NCBI GenBank assembly: GCA_029263395.1
Contig: JAJCXO010000177.1
Span: 1 to 64,000 of the forward strand
DNA length: 64,000 nt
Direction: 5' to 3'
DNA from: Acidobacteriota bacterium
GTDB lineage: Bacteria > Acidobacteriota > Thermoanaerobaculia > Multivoradales > J023
Below, piece by piece: positions 6,051 through 60,675 of this stretch. A model generated the notes under the pieces. That model ran no database searches. It had not been told where the DNA came from and worked only from the letters and a program-made list of their open reading frames with translations. A program made the translations under genes and the position numbers. Every line of letters starts with the position of its first letter. Position 1 is the stretch's first letter.

Positions 6051-7706
6051 TCAGAACTTGTAGGCCAAGCCAACGCCGACGGTCAGCGGATCGATATCAA
6101 TCTCGACCCCGTTCACGTCCGCCGAAAGATCCATGTAGCGGGCACCGAAGTGGACCCCCCAATCGCCAGCACCAAACGGTACATCGAGGCCCAATTGGGC
6201 TCCGATTACGGTATCGGTGTCGAATTCACGGCGTTGGTTCTCGCCCAAGACCCGGAAACCGACGTTCCCAAGATCGGCGAACCCGATAAACGGACCGACG
6301 TAGAAGTCGACCTTCTTACCCGGGGTGAGGTGGAAGTTCGGACCGATCACGAAAGCCAAGAGGCTGGCATCGTCATCATCCTCAGCCCAGTCGGAACCGA
6401 TGTCGAAGAATAACGACGACTCGAGGATCGCGTAGAGAATGCTCGCTTCGAGACCCACTCGATCATTGAAGTGGTACTCGAGTCCAGCGCCAACACCTTG
6501 ACCCTTTTCGAGTTTCAAGACCGAGCGTTCCGACAAGCCGTCTGGCCGTGTCCGATCTTGACGCAATGAAAAGTCGTCAGGATCCGCAGCTAGCCCGAAG
6601 AATCTCGCCGTCCAAGCTGGCTTGACGGTAACGGTCGTCTCGCTGGTGGTGCTTTTGGCACACACCGCCGGCAAGCCTTCGCAGCGCACCGCATTGCCTT
6701 TGATTTGGTAGGTCCCTGTCTTGCGGAAAGCGATCGTACCCGACTCGGTCAACTCGCTGATCGCTTGCCCACCGGACTTAGCCTCCACTGCCTCGCCGTC
6801 TTTCTCGAACGTCACCTTGGCTGAATCGTAGGTACCGGAGACGTCCACCTGGATGTCCTCACCACGTTTGACCTCGGTGGGCTCAGCGCTGACGGTCAAC
6901 GATACCTGGCAATCGGCAACCTCGACCTTGGCGGTCTCAGAGCAAGTATCAACATCACCAGGCTTCTCCTCGGTCTTGGTTCCGATATGGGCCAAGTTGA
7001 GGCAAGCCTTCGGGATGATGAAAGTGTGAGTCGTGACGGTCTTGGTGCCTTGAGCTTCAGCTTTGGCAGTCATGGTGTAGCTACCCGGAGCTCCAACCGT
7101 GCCGCTCCAGGTAGTCGACCCACTGGAGACGATCGATTTTGAGCCACCTGGGCCGCTCATCTCGACGGTGACGCCTTTCGAGCTGCCGCCAGCATCCACC
7201 TTGACCGGATCTTCAACACAAGCACCACCCGACACGTTGAGGGCACATTGCGCCTTCACCGGGTTGTTTTTGACCTCAACGAGCTCGATCTCGTAGGCGC
7301 TATAGGTCTTGCGAGCAGAGACACACATCGGCCCAAGGGTCGTCGCGCCGCCACGCTTGCGGAAGGTCATCCATTGGAAGACCTCACCGCGGACGAGATC
7401 TCTCTCGGAAAGGCCTTTACCGCTCGAGATGGCTTCATAAAGGTCATCGACCAAGTGGCCAAAGCCCTTCTCCTGCATGATCGCGGTGATCTCGGTCTTG
7501 TGTTCAGTGAGCTGCTTATGAAGGTCAGCTGGCGAAGCGACCGCTTCTCTGGAGAAGGCGGTACGCCCTCCCAGCCGACCGATCTTCTGCTTCTTGTCGA
7601 AGCCTTCACACACTGCGTCCTGCGCCGCGGCTTCGGGTACTACCGAAAGGTAGCCCAGAGCGAGCAGAGACACCGCCAATAGCCTTATGGAGGCTTTATA
7701 GAACAT
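6051..7706 (-). CDS. Exported Ig-like / outer-membrane beta-barrel protein
   Basis: A 551-residue envelope protein. A signal peptide (about 1-29, ending AAAQD) is followed by a cysteine-containing N-terminal domain (30-125), two or three Ig/PKD-like beta domains (about 130-365, with paired cysteines) and a C-terminal 8-strand-like barrel (about 370-551). The barrel ends in the classic aromatic terminus VGVGLAYKF. Alternating hydrophobic strands such as VGAGLEYHF and VGLEASILYAI support the barrel. An OmpA/OprF-like barrel after Ig domains suggests a surface or adhesion role; the ligand is not known. It is a single-gene unit, with degenerate repeats in its leader. Confidence 0.85.
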   Translation of the reverse strand: MFYKASIRLLAVSLLALGYLSVVPEAAAQDAVCEGFDKKQKIGRLGGRTAFSREAVASPADLHKQLTEHKTEITAIMQEKGFGHLVDDLYEAISSGKGLSERDLVRGEVFQWMTFRKRGGATTLGPMCVSARKTYSAYEIELVEVKNNPVKAQCALNVSGGACVEDPVKVDAGGSSKGVTVEMSGPGGSKSIVSSGSTTWSGTVGAPGSYTMTAKAEAQGTKTVTTHTFIIPKACLNLAHIGTKTEEKPGDVDTCSETAKVEVADCQVSLTVSAEPTEVKRGEDIQVDVSGTYDSAKVTFEKDGEAVEAKSGGQAISELTESGTIAFRKTGTYQIKGNAVRCEGLPAVCAKSTTSETTVTVKPAWTARFFGLAADPDDFSLRQDRTRPDGLSERSVLKLEKGQGVGAGLEYHFNDRVGLEASILYAILESSLFFDIGSDWAEDDDDASLLAFVIGPNFHLTPGKKVDFYVGPFIGFADLGNVGFRVLGENQRREFDTDTVIGAQLGLDVPFGAGDWGVHFGARYMDLSADVNGVEIDIDPLTVGVGLAYKF

Positions 7707-11854: not shown

Positions 11855-12742
11855 CTAGGCTCCGAGCGCCTTGCCCATGGTGACGCCGAGCTCTGCTGGC
11901 GACTCGACAACATGTAGACCACACTCCCGCATGGTCTCCATCTTCTCTTTCGCCGTCCCCTTGCCGCCTGAGACGATGGCTCCAGCATGACCCATTCTGC
12001 GTCCCGGCGGCGCGGTACGGCCGGCGATGAAACCAACCACTGGACGATCAAAGTGATCGCGGATCCACTCGGCAGCCTCTTCTTCGGCACTACCACCGAT
12101 TTCGCCGATCAGGATGACACCCTCGGTATCCCCATCCTCGGCAAACGCTTCCAAGACATTGATGAAGCTGGTGCCGTTGACTGGATCGCCACCAATCCCA
12201 ATGCAGGTCGACTGCCCCAGCTCGAGATTCGTCAGCTGCCAGACCGCTTCGTAGGTCAGGGTACCTGAGCGACTGATCACACCAACCTTGCCGGGGCGAT
12301 GAATATGCCCGGGCATGATGCCGATCTTGGCCTCGCCAGGTGTGATGACGCCCGGACAATTGGGACCAATCAGTCGACTCGTTTTGCCTTCTTCAGCACA
12401 CTGCCGCATGAAGGTCTTGACCTTCAACATATCGTTGACCGGCAAACCTTCCGTAATACAAACGATCAGCTCGATACCGGCAGCGGCCGCTTCCATGATT
12501 GCGTCCGCGGCAAACGGCGGCGGCACAAAAATCATCGTGGCATTACATCCCGTTTTGGCACGGGCTTCGTCCACCGCATCAAAAACCGGGATCCCTTCGA
12601 CCGCTTGACCACCCTTGCCGGGGGTCACACCGGCCACCACCTGGGTGCCGTAATCCCGGCATCCCAGGGCATGAAAGGTACCCTCTTTGCCGGTGATGCC
12701 CTGCACCAACAGACGCGTGTTGTTACCAACCCAGATCGCCAC
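11855..12742 (-). CDS. sucD: Succinyl-CoA ligase, alpha subunit
   Basis: A 295-residue subunit of the TCA-cycle enzyme that makes succinate plus NTP from succinyl-CoA. It has the Rossmann CoA-binding domain (about 5-130; TGKEGTFH and GVTPGKGG), [20 protein letters not shown], the [10 protein letters not shown] power-helix segment, and the phosphohistidine in [12 protein letters not shown]. Length is that of the family (~290). The GTG start overlaps the sucC stop by one base (TAGTG), so the two subunits are coupled. Confidence 0.97.
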
Positions 12743-15029: not shown

Positions 15030-15062
15030 TCTTCAACTTCGATCTGCTTTCGCTCAGAGCCT

Positions 15063-17525
15063 TCAGCCGTTCGCCTGACCACGCCGAGTGAGTGCCTCGG
15101 CCTCTTTCGGATGCTCTTGCCGCGACCGCAGCTCTGCGGTCGCCTCCTCTAGTTCCACCGCTAGGCGGTGCTGCGGATCGAAGTTGGCCGAGACAATCCG
15201 GTGTGCATTGTCGAGCGCTTTGGCTGCGGAGTCCAGCCGACCCAAGTCGACATATAGACTCCCGAGTCCCACCCATATATGGCCGACGGTAGGATGCTCC
15301 TTGCCTAATTTCGCCTGACTGGTTTGGAGAGTCTGCAGATAAAGGGTCTCCGACTCCTCGACACGCCCTCGAGCCCGGTAGATCTCCGCCAGATTGAAGA
15401 TCCCGATCGCCGAATTCGCATTACCGGGACCGTGTAGTTCGTCCCGCGCCGCGATGGACTCGAGTAGGAGCGTCTCAGCTTCCTCGAACCTGTCCTGACC
15501 GTCGAGCGCGAGCGCCAAGTTGTGCTGGGTCGAGATCACATCGGAATGTAAATCTCCGTATTGGGCTCGGCGGATGCGATAAGCCTCTCGAATGTGGCGC
15601 TCGGCATCAACGAATCGTTCCTGATTGAGATCTACGTTCCCTTGCAGGTGCAGGCAACTGGCAATCCCGATCGGATCTGGCTCGGGGGCCGAACGGACGA
15701 TCGCCAGCGCCTTCTTCAAAATTTCTCCGGCGGCGTCATAGTCACCGGTGGTCGTCTTCAGCCTGGCCTGGTTGAGGAGTGCAATCGTGAACTCTCGTGA
15801 ATAGGGACCATGGACTTGGGACCGAGTCTGAAGGGCTTCGTCCAAGGTCTCCGAAGCCACGTCATAGAGACCCATGTGATGGTAGGCAACGCCAATCGCC
15901 TCGAGCACCCGGGCCTGCGACTCGGGTCGCTGTTTAAAGTAGATGCGCGCGTTCTCCCGACCGACGCCGAGTATTTCCTCGGCGGTGACAAATCCCGGCT
16001 TGAAGCCGATAATCCGAGTGAGGAAATCGGCAACCTCTTCAGCTGAATTGGCTTGGCGTTGGGCCTGTTGGGCTTGCATGTTGGCCCGAGCAGCAGCGGT
16101 GTTGGCGCGCCGGGTTTGCCTGACCAACGCCAGGACGGACGCCAGGATCAGCAGACCTGCCAGGCTAGCCAGCAAAATCATCGACCGGTGTCGCGAGACC
16201 GCCTTGCGCAGGCGATACTCGAGGCTCGGTGGACGGGCCAGGATCGGCAGCTGGCGCTGGTGACGGTCGATGTCAGCGGCTAGCTGCTCCGCGGAGGGGT
16301 AACGATCTTCGGCTCGTTTCGCCAAGGCCTTGAGAATGATCGCGTCGAGGTCACCCTGGAGGCGGCTGACTGGTAGGGTTTCGACCACCGTCTCAATCGC
16401 CGTCTCAATCGCCGTTTCGACCGCGGCGGAGCCCGCTATTTTGACGTCGGCGGTAGTGGCGTCGGTCGATACGGTAGCAATCGCGTCAGCGCTAGCGGAA
16501 CTAGCGGCGGCGGTGGTGGCACGACTAGGAGGGACCGGGTCGTCGCCACAGACCATCTTGGCCACTTCATGTACCGGCCGCCCCTCGGTCACAAACGGGT
16601 GCCGACCGGTGAGGGTCCGATACAACATGATCCCCAAACCGTGGACGTCGGTCGCCGTTGTGATCGGTTCGCAGCGAATCTGCTCCGGGCTAGCGTAGGC
16701 TAGTGTCATCGGTGAATTGCCGGTGGCCGTTTCGGCACCCAAGAGCTCGTGGCCACCCGAGAGGGCTTTGGCAATGCTGAAGTCTAGGAGTTTGAGCGTG
16801 CCATCGTGGGTCACCAGGATGTTGCCGGGCTTCAGGTCGCGATGGACCACAAAGTTTTGGTGGGCAAACTGCACCGCCGAACACAGCGCCGCAAAAAACT
16901 CCAGCCGTTTTTCTAGAGAGAGTGCGTTGCGGACACAATAGGTGTCCATCGGCAGACCATCGATGTACTCCATCACCAAATACGGTCGACCGTCTTCGGT
17001 GGTGCCGCCGTCATACAGGCGGGCGATGTTCGGATGTTCGAGTCGAGCAAGAATCTGACGTTCGGCGAGGATTCTGAGTTTGGCCTCATCACCCCCCAGC
17101 CGGTGTTTGAGCACCTTCACCGCCACCTGTTGCTCGTATTGGTGGTCCGCTCGAGCCGCCAGGAACACTTCGCCGATGCCACCGGAACCCAACGGACGGA
17201 CGATCCGATAGGGACCGATCCGCTGGCCCGAATAGGCCTCCGTGTTCGGAGGATCGAACAACCCCTGCGCCCAATCGGCGACGGCCGGCCGCGCCAGAAA
17301 CCGGCCGGCGTTGCGATCGGCTTCCAACAGCTTTTCGACCCGCTGCCTGAGGTTGACGTCGGCACCGCAGGTTCGGGCGAGGTAAAAGGCGAGTTGGTCC
17401 GGATTGAGTTCCAAAGCCCCTTCGACAATCTCTACCAACCCTGCGCGCTGTGCGATGGTCGGCTGCCTGTTTCCGAGTGGAGCCCCTACGTTCAACGGAT
17501 CGGTGATCGTTGCTTCGTATGCCAT
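15063..17525 (-). CDS. Serine/threonine protein kinase with a membrane anchor and TPR repeats
   Basis: An ~820-residue PknB-type kinase. An N-terminal helical segment (1-100) is followed by a kinase domain at about 105-400: GSGGIGEV loop, VAVKVLKH lysine, HRDLKPGN catalytic loop, and a DFS in place of DFG that keeps the metal-binding aspartate. A low-complexity A/T/E insertion (ETAIETAIET repeats from 12-bp duplications) sits in the kinase C-lobe. A transmembrane helix (about 450-472, ILLASLAGLLILASVLALV) precedes a C-terminal TPR array. This architecture is common in Acidobacteriota and Planctomycetes. GTG ATG is present; I take the ATG. Its leader is full of repeats. Confidence 0.93.
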   Translation of the reverse strand: MAYEATITDPLNVGAPLGNRQPTIAQRAGLVEIVEGALELNPDQLAFYLARTCGADVNLRQRVEKLLEADRNAGRFLARPAVADWAQGLFDPPNTEAYSGQRIGPYRIVRPLGSGGIGEVFLAARADHQYEQQVAVKVLKHRLGGDEAKLRILAERQILARLEHPNIARLYDGGTTEDGRPYLVMEYIDGLPMDTYCVRNALSLEKRLEFFAALCSAVQFAHQNFVVHRDLKPGNILVTHDGTLKLLDFSIAKALSGGHELLGAETATGNSPMTLAYASPEQIRCEPITTATDVHGLGIMLYRTLTGRHPFVTEGRPVHEVAKMVCGDDPVPPSRATTAAASSASADAIATVSTDATTADVKIAGSAAVETAIETAIETVVETLPVSRLQGDLDAIILKALAKRAEDRYPSAEQLAADIDRHQRQLPILARPPSLEYRLRKAVSRHRSMILLASLAGLLILASVLALVRQTRRANTAAARANMQAQQAQRQANSAEEVADFLTRIIGFKPGFVTAEEILGVGRENARIYFKQRPESQARVLEAIGVAYHHMGLYDVASETLDEALQTRSQVHGPYSREFTIALLNQARLKTTTGDYDAAGEILKKALAIVRSAPEPDPIGIASCLHLQGNVDLNQERFVDAERHIREAYRIRRAQYGDLHSDVISTQHNLALALDGQDRFEEAETLLLESIAARDELHGPGNANSAIGIFNLAEIYRARGRVEESETLYLQTLQTSQAKLGKEHPTVGHIWVGLGSLYVDLGRLDSAAKALDNAHRIVSANFDPQHRLAVELEEATAELRSRQEHPKEAEALTRRGQANG

Positions 17526-17634
17526 CACCTTGGAGTGTAGCTGGGCCGTCTGGTCACGACTGGGGCGTCGGGATCAGTCGCATGCTCTCGAGGGTAGGGT
17601 GCTCCAGACCAGGTTCGCCAACCCGCCCTTGGTC

Positions 17635-17724
17635 GGCGACCAAGGCGGCGACCAAGGTGCGGCGGCGACCAAGGTGCCACCCGACTCGGCAGACCTACGT
17701 CGATCAAGGTGCCACCCGACTCGG
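17635..17724. repeat. Nested tandem repeats in the kinase leader
   Basis: GGCGACCAAGG occurs three times at 17635-17673, and AAGGTGCCACCCGACTCGG occurs perfectly at 17671-17689 and 17706-17724 (period 35 bp). No gene is visible between the kinase start (17525) and higA (18121); the whole 595 bp consists of these repeats and the 43-bp array. Confidence 0.75.
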
Positions 17725-17767
17725 AACCCGATCGCTCACTACCGGATTCGACCCTTGAATCGAACAC

Positions 17768-18056
17768 CATCTAACGGGTTTTGATCGCAACACGTTCCTC
17801 ACAAGCACATCTAACGGGTTTTGGTCGTGTGAATCCGTTATTTACAAGTGCATCTAACGGGTTTTCGCCGTATGAATCCGTTATTTACAAATGCATCTAA
17901 CGGGTTTTCGCCGTATGAATCCGTTATTTACAAGCACATCTAACGGATTTTGGTCGTGTGAACCCGTTATTTACAAACACATCTAACGAGTTACGGGCCC
18001 CGTAATCCGTTATTTGCACCTGTATCCAACGGTTTACAAGCAAATATACTCGTTAG
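17768..18056. repeat. Tandem array of seven ~43-bp units, each with a TAACGG/CCGTTA palindrome
   Basis: Units begin at 17768, 17808, 17851, 17894, 17937, 17980 and 18023; the first period is 40 bp, all others exactly 43 bp. Each unit starts CATCTAACGG, has a variable ~12-base middle (TTGGTCGTGT, TTCGCCGTAT and so on), then CCGTTATTTACAA. The left and right arms form a hairpin of 6-9 bp. Unit six has a much longer palindrome through TTACGGGCCCCGTAA; unit seven is eroded. There are no unique spacers, so it is not a CRISPR. It lies between higA and the kinase leader. Confidence 0.9.
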
Positions 18057-18120
18057 ATCTTGGGCCCCGATCTCCATTACGGAGACAACGAGGCAGCTCC
18101 TTCGGCGAACTTGCAGCTGA

Positions 18121-18414
18121 TCAGGCCGCCCGGAACTCGACCTTCTGAACCTTCGAAAGATCCATGGACTTCCTAGCGTGCCAAAGATCATAACTGTCTT
18201 GCAAGGCGAGCCAGCTTTCCGGTGACCGCCCCAGTGCTGCAGACAGCCTCAAAGCCATCTCCGGGCTAATCCCACTCCGGGCGTTGAGTAGTCGGTTCAA
18301 TGTAGACGCGGAGACCCCAAGGCTCTCAGCCAGGCTACGGGCACTGAGTTCAAACGGCTCCAGATATATCTCACGGATAAACTCACCAGGGTGTGGGGGA
18401 TTATGCATCGCCAT
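18121..18414 (-). CDS. higA: HigA-family antitoxin
   Basis: A 97-residue XRE-type antitoxin. It begins with the family signature HNPPHPGEFIREIYLEP, then the helix-turn-helix (about 24-65, SARSLAESLGVSASTLNRLLNARSG) and LSAALGRSPESWLALQDSYDLW. HigA binds HigB and represses the operon. Its ATG overlaps the higB stop by one base (TAATG), with toxin first, as is typical for higBA. The 43-bp array begins 65 bp beyond its stop. Confidence 0.93.
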   Translation of the reverse strand: MAMHNPPHPGEFIREIYLEPFELSARSLAESLGVSASTLNRLLNARSGISPEMALRLSAALGRSPESWLALQDSYDLWHARKSMDLSKVQKVEFRAA

Positions 18415-18692
18415 TAGTGGTAGTCCTCGTAGTCGAGTAGATATGCGTTTCCCTCGCGGAACTCAAACGTCAGTCGCCAGTTCCCATTGACTCGGATTGC
18501 CCAGCGTCCTTCCATCTTTCCTTTCAGAGGATGAAGATTGAATCCGGGAATGTCCATATCGTCAATTGAGAAGGCACTATCCAACGCAGCGAGCTGCATT
18601 TGAAGCCGTCTGGAGTGATTGGCCTGAATTCCAGCCTTGCTGCCTGTCGCGAAGAAACGGCGCAGTCCTTTGTGCCGTATCGTCTTGATCAT
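18414..18692 (-). CDS. higB: HigB-family toxin (RelE-like mRNA interferase)
   Basis: A 92-residue ribosome-dependent RNase toxin. Family features are IKTIRHKGLRRFFATGS at the N-terminus, LDSAFSIDDMDIPGFNLHPLKG in the middle, and the C-terminal RWAIRVNGNWRLTFEFREGNAYLLDYEDYH with the basic and acidic residues used in catalysis. Full length and intact. It heads the pair; the promoter must lie in the 53 bp between 18693 and the truC stop. Confidence 0.93.
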   Translation of the reverse strand: MIKTIRHKGLRRFFATGSKAGIQANHSRRLQMQLAALDSAFSIDDMDIPGFNLHPLKGKMEGRWAIRVNGNWRLTFEFREGNAYLLDYEDYH

Positions 18693-18745
18693 CGATAAAC
18701 TGTAGCACGTTGCGCACCACGCAACAATCTACAGGCCTCGCCCTG

Positions 18746-19462
18746 TTAACCCTCGGACTGGCCGTCTACCGTGCCTTCGCCATCGAGCGCCTCGACGTCG
18801 AAACCCATCGCCACGAACGGACTGGCAAGGTCGTCGGACAACTTGGCCCGACAGATCAGTGGCTGCCCGGTCACCGGATGTTCCAAGCTGATCTCCGCGG
18901 CATGTAACACCAGACGATGTAATCCGAAGCGCTGGCGGAAGTAGCGATTGTGCTCGCCTTTGCCGTACTTGACGTCACCGATCATGGGATGACTCAGGTG
19001 TTTGAGGTGACGGCGGATCTGGTGGAGTCTGCCGGTTTGGGGTAACGCTTCCACCAGGGCGTAGCGTTCGAAGGTATCAAGCCGATGAATCAACGTGACG
19101 GCGGGCACCCTCGGACCACCGGGCGACTTGGGAATCGGGTGGTCGACTAGGATCTCTTCTGGCGGAATACCACGCACCAGACCCAGATACCGTTTGCGCA
19201 CCTTGCCGTCTGCAAACAGCTGCTGAGTTTGGCCACAGATCTCGCGGTCGAGCGCAAACACGAGCGCACCGCTGGTGCCACGGTCGAGCCGATGGACGGG
19301 GTGGACGTGGCAACCCACCAAATCTCGCGCCAGCGTCATCGCTACCACACGGTCTTGAGCCCAGCCGCGATGGACAATCATTCCCGACGGTTTGGACACC
19401 ACCAACAGATGATCGTCGCGGAAAAGGATCGGGAGTTCGCTGGACTTCTGGGCTTCGGTCAT
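18746..19462 (-). CDS. truC: RluA-family pseudouridine synthase, TruC-like
   Basis: A 238-residue enzyme that likely makes pseudouridine in tRNA (U65 in E. coli). It has HPVHRLDRGTSGALVFALD with the catalytic aspartate, KRYLGLVRG, ALPQTGRLHQIRRHLKHLSHPMIGDVKYG and RLVLHAAEISLEHPVTG. There is no S4 domain, as in TruC. I chose the ATG at 19462 because it overlaps the stop of a small leader ORF (ATGA); an in-frame TTG lies four codons upstream without a site. The exact RNA target is not proven by sequence. Confidence 0.88.
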   Translation of the reverse strand: MTEAQKSSELPILFRDDHLLVVSKPSGMIVHRGWAQDRVVAMTLARDLVGCHVHPVHRLDRGTSGALVFALDREICGQTQQLFADGKVRKRYLGLVRGIPPEEILVDHPIPKSPGGPRVPAVTLIHRLDTFERYALVEALPQTGRLHQIRRHLKHLSHPMIGDVKYGKGEHNRYFRQRFGLHRLVLHAAEISLEHPVTGQPLICRAKLSDDLASPFVAMGFDVEALDGEGTVDGQSEG

Positions 19463-60349: not shown

Positions 60350-60544
60350 CCAGACCTGCGAGGGACTGATTGAAGTCCGCCGTCACTCGAAGACCCTTCG
60401 TCGGCACCAACACCTCCGAAGGCGGCGGTAGCCAGCCATTCCCGCGCTCCAACTCGCGTCCTGACGGCGGGACAAGACGTCTCCAGCCTCCAAACTCCCG
60501 TCCCGAGCCCGCCAGGAGACGTGTTGTGACGATGGAAAGCTCTT

Positions 60545-60675
60545 CTCCCGCCGTTGGACCCCCTGACCCAACGGTCAACAGGCGTTCTCCCGCGGTTGGA
60601 CGCGATACCTGACGTTCGAATGGCGTCCTCCCGGCGGGAGAGCCCTTGTTTCGACGACCGAAAGGTCTTCTCCCG
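60545..60675. repeat. Four degenerate units with a 41-42 bp period after the porin gene
   Basis: The core TTCTCCCG or CCTCCCG has its CTCCCG at 60545, 60587, 60628 and 60670 (spacings 42, 41, 42 bp), with further similarity around it (GTTGGA after the first two). An earlier CTCCCG is at 60495. The gap 60350-60818 has no gene and consists of this array, a hairpin and a short repeat. The period is close to the 43-bp array at 17768. Confidence 0.6.

Follow-up and report, generated by a model that had tools for sequence, protein, structure and literature searches.

The stretch of DNA analysed here, a 64,000-nucleotide window from an Acidobacteriota genome (G000; 10.7 Mb in 291 contigs, sampled by regions with about one-tenth covered), carries a tandem array of palindromes with a 43-bp period. 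The array lies, as the original prediction placed it, between a kinase gene and a higBA pair; the kinase is of the Ser/Thr type with TPRs, and the pair encodes an HTH antitoxin and a HigB-like toxin. In the related genomes G001, G002 and G006 the genes that flank this segment adjoin each other, and in all three syntenic comparisons the array family of the window sits at or beside a synteny break. Kinase paralogues fetched from the genus include no other locus with an array. The features of the locus, none of which is assigned to a strand, are as follows.

15035 to 18797 (limits approximate), no strand: segment with kinase, array and higBA, absent from G001, G002 and G006 (blastn against syntenic regions)
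17769 to 17803, no strand: unit 1, degenerate, with left arm ATCTAACGGGTTT present and no right arm, its start 40 bp ahead of that of unit 2 (sequence)
17809 to 17843, no strand: unit 2, with 13-bp left arm, 9-bp loop and 13-bp right arm (sequence; covariance-model match)
17852 to 17886, no strand: unit 3 (sequence; covariance-model match)
17895 to 17929, no strand: unit 4 (sequence; covariance-model match)
17938 to 17972, no strand: unit 5, with the G/A change in the arm opposite to that of units 2 to 4 (sequence; covariance-model match)
17981 to 18015, no strand: unit 6, with an extra inner palindrome, TTACGGG-C-CCCGTAA (sequence; covariance-model match)
18024 to 18058, no strand: unit 7, the array end, with a diverged left arm, ATCCAACGG, and a full right arm, CTCGTTAGAT (sequence; covariance-model match)
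18700 to 18734, no strand: palindrome of the higBA promoter, CTGTAGCACGTTGCG-CACCA-CGCAACAATCTACAG, just upstream of higBA and outside the array, given for context (read from the sequence)

Inspection of the sequence confirms seven units between 17769 and 18058, six of them at an exact 43-bp spacing (all five intervals among units 2 to 7). TRF gives the array a score of 279 at period 43, and its self-identity at a lag of 43 is 162 of 200 positions, against a maximum of 78 of 200 in 60 dinucleotide shuffles. Each unit has 13-bp arms on either side of a 9-bp loop, followed by an 8-bp spacer; the right arm reads AAATCCGTTAGAT in the family consensus and GAATCCGTTATTT in the window. The TAACGG/CCGTTA arms, described at first as conserved, are intact in units 2 to 5 but altered in units 1, 6 and 7, the left arm of unit 6 reading TAACGAG. 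The longer palindrome that unit 6 was said to have gained is there. Unit 5 likewise shows the G/A change in its other arm, but pairing is not kept by it: on the plus strand the apposition is G.T in units 2 to 4 and A.C in unit 5. The wider claim that pairing potential is preserved while bases change is not supported over the 17 units of three related arrays: 85.6% of arm cells pair as against 86.4% in shuffles, and the arms show no covariation above shuffles. A slight covariation signal links the right arm of one unit to the left arm of the next (47 of 500 shuffles). A scan for promoters and terminators gave nothing above chance.

The two other arrays of that comparison lie elsewhere in G000, at C257:12947-13196 (six units) and C282:86466-86672 (five units), and combine the window arms with the same 43-bp period; their full-length arms read ATCTAACGG(G/A)TTT...AAA(T/C)CCGTTAGAT. 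A search that allowed up to three mismatches turned up no isolated copy of the palindrome anywhere in the genome. Comparison of the three loci gives identities of 85% and 75% for the 13-bp arms and 40% for the spacers, whereas the 9-bp loops are effectively random, at 28% against the 26% expected from composition. All 14 intervals between aligned units measure 43 bp; the one departure is at the degenerate first unit of the window array. Fixed spacing of conserved words, with the intervening bases free to vary, is what we read as the probable trace of protein–DNA recognition; an RNA that depended on pairing would be expected to show compensatory changes and, because the arms do not covary, recognition of the sequence is a better fit than pairing in a hairpin. 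The suggestion of equal protein sites about four DNA turns apart is favoured by the conserved arms, the random loops and spacers and the fixed lengths, and by the prevalence of the 42/43-bp period in the genus that is described below.

The protein first named for these sites does not share in that support. HigA is encoded in the higBA pair that adjoins the array, but the higBA promoter has a different palindrome of its own (18700 to 18734), which is unlike the array arms, shares no motif with the array and is, from its sequence, a candidate HigA operator; moreover, the sister arrays in C257 and C282 have the same arms and no neighbouring higBA. An unrelated promoter palindrome and sister arrays without higBA leave HigA unsupported as the ligand, and its binding to the window array is extremely unlikely. 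A better candidate is an ABATE/CGNR zinc-finger protein whose gene lies outside this locus.

The arms themselves seem confined to this genome. A two-unit covariance model searched against 99 genomes matched only in G000, as did an exact-pattern search for relatives, and no array with the window arms was found in the sister species G001 (86% complete). Pattern scans returned 26 matches in species genomes and 12 in IMG/VR, by estimate about the number due to chance; a few of them match the model weakly. Two IMG/VR viral contigs carry a repeat of about 45 bp, TAACGGGAT...ATCCCGTTA (L081 9353-9432 and L083 3333-3412). The original prediction was to fall if the array were missing from every related genome, and the outcome is mixed: the window arms are missing from the 98 others, yet arrays of the same 42/43-bp class are present in the sister species.

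This class emerged from a tandem-repeat scan of 1.31 Mb of G000 and G001, partly chosen around known arrays. Of 31 intergenic arrays with periods of 20 to 99, 17 had a period of 42 or 43, and four more lay at roughly double that (83, 84, 86 and 86); among 28 arrays within genes, one had period 42 and one 84. Intergenic arrays in the genus thus have 42/43 bp as their most frequent period, over many different unit sequences, and the window array, with its tandem intergenic units and 42–43-bp period, belongs to the class. Its unit sequences are highly diverse and fall into families, some common to G000 and G001. Many of the arrays are only weakly palindromic, and palindromicity was dropped as a defining feature. 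Hairpin geometry differs between families (loops of 1 to 13) while the period stays at 42–43 bp, which argues for a constraint of DNA geometry on the period. None of about 20 class arrays lies between divergent genes, where 22% would be expected by length (P of about 0.007); this count was corrected by hand for short genes, such as higBA and the C282 CGNR gene described below, that our home-made gene finder misses. Five other genomes of the family, sampled over 756 kb in all, gave no clear non-coding case.

Several further tandem repeats deserve mention. The window holds a second, weaker one at 60430 to 60650 (period 42, 53% identity at that lag), of the same family as an array near position 12730 of G000:C282 (L164). 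A 42-bp family with the core CCAATTGG occurs at L133 5780-6000 and L134 1-340 in G001 and at L186 2420-2660 in G000, and has been assigned to no CGNR gene. Period-41 repeats with GGGTGGCACCTG, possibly of a different repeat class, occur near 7098 and 12394 of L231 (G003:C235), which belongs to another genus of the same family.

The C282 array offers a partner. It begins 90 bp 3′ of the stop codon of a gene (G000:C282:85633-86376) whose 247-aa product has both domains of the ABATE/CGNR family (PF07336 and PF11706; Jann_2411, PDB 3h0n), scoring 64.0 bits for ABATE and 29.1 bits for zf-CGNR and so passing the Pfam cut-offs of 24.4 and 24. Five of the six CGNR genes in the first loci examined had a 42- or 43-bp array directly after the gene. 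The prediction that the remaining CGNR genes carry arrays was recorded before it was tested, several thresholds being set after the data had been seen, and it held at every evaluable gene: a downstream 42/43-bp array followed 18 of 18 (10 of 10 in G000, 8 of 8 in G001). With genes added by an ABATE-family search, and counting those with an intact end in the sequence, an adjacent array was observed at 23 of 25 evaluable genes in the two species, 20 downstream and 3 upstream, against a background of 21 arrays per 843 predicted genes. By species, G000 has 11 downstream, 1 upstream and 2 genes with none (one of these truncated), and G001 has 9 downstream and 2 upstream.

The gene family is expanded in the genus, represented among the relatives searched by G000 and G001, to about 14 CGNR genes per genome. 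Most of the sampled 42/43-bp arrays nevertheless lie away from any CGNR gene. The few that could be matched to a CGNR-linked motif are those of the window, C257 and L192 and, weakly, L160 and L194. The window itself contains no CGNR gene, which makes its array an orphan of the CGNR-linked class. In G001 the orthologue of the C282 gene is truncated and lacks an array. A TAACGG-type array upstream of the CGNR gene of C229, with arms AATAACGGCCAC/GTGGCCGTTATT (L173, G000:C229:47060-47400), may be distantly related to the window motif.

Within the searched data the pairing of gene and array looks specific to this genus. At 28 ABATE loci of other genera, and at those of six plasmids, no adjacent 42/43-bp array was seen, which argues against array binding as a trait of the family at large. 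On several plasmids the ABATE gene is instead transcribed divergently from a gene for a transporter or an enzyme, a layout typical of an ordinary regulator. One locus of another genus (L295, G079:C56) has a 41-bp tandem array, its units 92% identical, about 1.3 kb from an ABATE gene. Our literature searches found no published description of a pairing between CGNR genes and arrays and nothing relevant on tandem palindromic or 42/43-bp intergenic arrays; for CGNR/ABATE they returned a structural paper and passing mentions that name no DNA target.

The motif of an array follows the relatedness of its protein. Protein identity correlates with the k-mers that arrays have in common (Mantel r = 0.73, 0 of 5,000 permutations), and the correlation persists among the G000 paralogues alone (r = 0.40, P = 0.012). 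Orthologous pairs have recognizable motifs in common, namely GGTTAAGCG...CGCTTAACC in C5/C508 and C53/C666, CTTGTTGACTTG in C206/C492 and CCGGAA...TTCCGG in C30/C304, and C80/C622 and C49/C536/C38 share motifs by k-mers. Arrays of orthologues repeat the pattern seen in the window, with 15 to 28 conserved columns at a mean identity of 0.77 to 0.90, the remainder standing at 0.29 to 0.46. The window array has the same arms as the C282 array by the covariance model, with a k-mer overlap of 0.12 against a null maximum of 0.09. Orthologous arrays may owe their motif partly to descent, which is not fully separable from selection; the paralogues and the random loops argue for selection.

These results bear on whether the arrays have a function at all. 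Slippage or template switching could build 42–43-bp arrays in plastic intergenic regions as neutral or selfish minisatellites, and their density agrees with such an origin: in G000 contigs picked without regard to arrays, 400 kb in all, we counted five, a density of roughly one in 80 kb, many with unrelated units, and the window family keeps to the synteny breaks described above. Random loops beside conserved arms, at a spacing that holds from locus to locus and between species, would still need selection, and this origin leaves unexplained both the linkage to CGNR genes at 23 of 25 loci and the correlation between protein and motif. We consider it improbable.

Transcription gives the arrays another possible role. 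A CGNR transcript reading into the downstream array would yield a chain of hairpins with variable loops, which the CGNR protein or some other factor might use as a structural, antitoxin-like or guide RNA. Linked arrays do lie 3′ of the gene, in the sense direction, in 20 of 23 cases; they fold better than column-permuted controls; and on the gene strand G.U appositions slightly exceed A.C (99 to 73). The folding excess is, however, about equal on both strands, the arms lack covariation, and three linked arrays lie 5′ of their gene. There is also no obvious RNA reason for a constant 42–43-bp period with hairpins of varying size, the asymmetry of the window array opposes the strand of both flanking genes, and the arrays have no match in Rfam 15 at gathering score. 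On balance we regard a role as RNA as unlikely.

Mobile elements were weighed for a different likeness. The arrays are extragenic, palindromic, tandem and not found between divergent genes, like BIMEs, and they might accordingly be REP/BIME sites of a RAYT transposase, arrays of transposon-end sites or attC-like sites. Y1 transposases are encoded in the genome, one of them some 3.5 kb away from the C282 array, and the outer arm bases, ATCTAAC/GTTAGAT, fit the attC R-box pattern. Set against this, several Y1 genes are flanked by another palindrome, CCCAGGGT...ACCCTGGG, and the window motif has no isolated copies. As for attC, which we judged by size and lack of cassettes, no cassettes lie between the units, and the 35-bp palindrome is shorter than known attC sites. 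Any such origin is highly unlikely, and REP/BIME with RAYT in particular was rejected on the lack of isolated copies and the different palindrome beside Y1 genes; unlike that system, the arrays have a zinc-finger family as partner. The other palindrome marks a REP-like family of the genus, its Y1 (RAYT-like) genes being those of L221 (G000:C30), L226 (C140), L222 (C132) and L220 (G001:C136). Separately, 42-bp arrays occur within 1.5 kb of Y1 transposase genes at L229 (G001:C113) 2140-2390, L224 (G000:C46) 1960-2180 and L226 960-1330, more often than background density would give.

Proteins paired with an array of their own DNA sites are familiar from iterons with Rep, centromere repeats with ParB or ParR, and phased operators. 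The CGNR loci would work in a similar manner, with a gene that adjoins tandem sites of fixed, helically phased period. They differ in that no replication or partition gene lies beside the three TAACGG arrays, and in having about 14 paralogous pairs per genome together with orphan arrays in trans. The dRS3/NIME elements of Neisseria also form intergenic arrays, of palindromes whose arms are conserved and whose middle varies; they are not known to have a fixed 43-bp period or a linked zinc-finger gene. TIGR-Tas systems place an array beside a protein gene, with stem-loop arrays at some Tas loci, and have conserved repeats alternating with variable stretches of 8–9 nt as here (PMC12045711). Their two distinct alternating repeats of 8–12 nt with 9-nt spacers differ from 13-bp reverse-complement arms with gaps of 9 and 8 bp, and the partner of the present arrays is a zinc-finger family. 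TIGR-Tas was set aside after no match to PF01798 (Nop) appeared in the genome up to E = 10, a model from which Tas Nop domains may be too distant.

We therefore return to protein recognition and propose, with a probability of about two in three, that the arrays are phased palindromic candidate DNA sites for ABATE/CGNR zinc-finger proteins, the window holding a distal array of the C282 protein. Jann_2411 (3h0n), the first ABATE/CGNR structure, probably forms a dimer; DNA binding is predicted for its zinc finger, a treble clef at the C terminus, and the protein was proposed to be a ligand-responsive regulator (PMC2954205). That paper mentions no repeat arrays, and a plain sequence search of the C282 protein returned no PDB match. 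Palindromic sites would suit a dimer, and C282 CGNR dimers are our proposed ligand: each 35-bp palindrome would take one dimer, and the 42–43-bp period, about four helical turns, would line up neighbouring dimers along a single face of the helix, allowing cooperative binding or bridging. The same dimers would occupy the palindromes side by side at the window, C257 and C282, and on sequence grounds the arrays of the window and C257 are most reasonably classed as orphans that belong to the C282 protein. Arrays at 3′ ends and none between divergent genes argue against plain promoter repression; an occupied array would most likely act in titration, in local DNA architecture or the bridging of arrays, or in control at gene 3′ ends.

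A broader picture is possible, and we offer it tentatively: about 14 CGNR paralogues, each with its own phased sites and distant orphan sets, might form nucleoprotein bridges in cis and trans or act on the 3′ ends of neighbouring genes, as a chromosomal system not described before. A stranger variant would have the arrays transcribed and their variable loops serve as guides. ABATE/CGNR is a widespread and structurally solved family for which these arrays are a concrete candidate DNA target. About two dozen gene–array pairs, with motifs that track protein relatedness, provide a data set for finding specificity residues and for a simple binding test, and a 42–43-bp period held over so many sequences poses the question of whether selection in bacteria maintains four-turn phasing at sites outside promoters.
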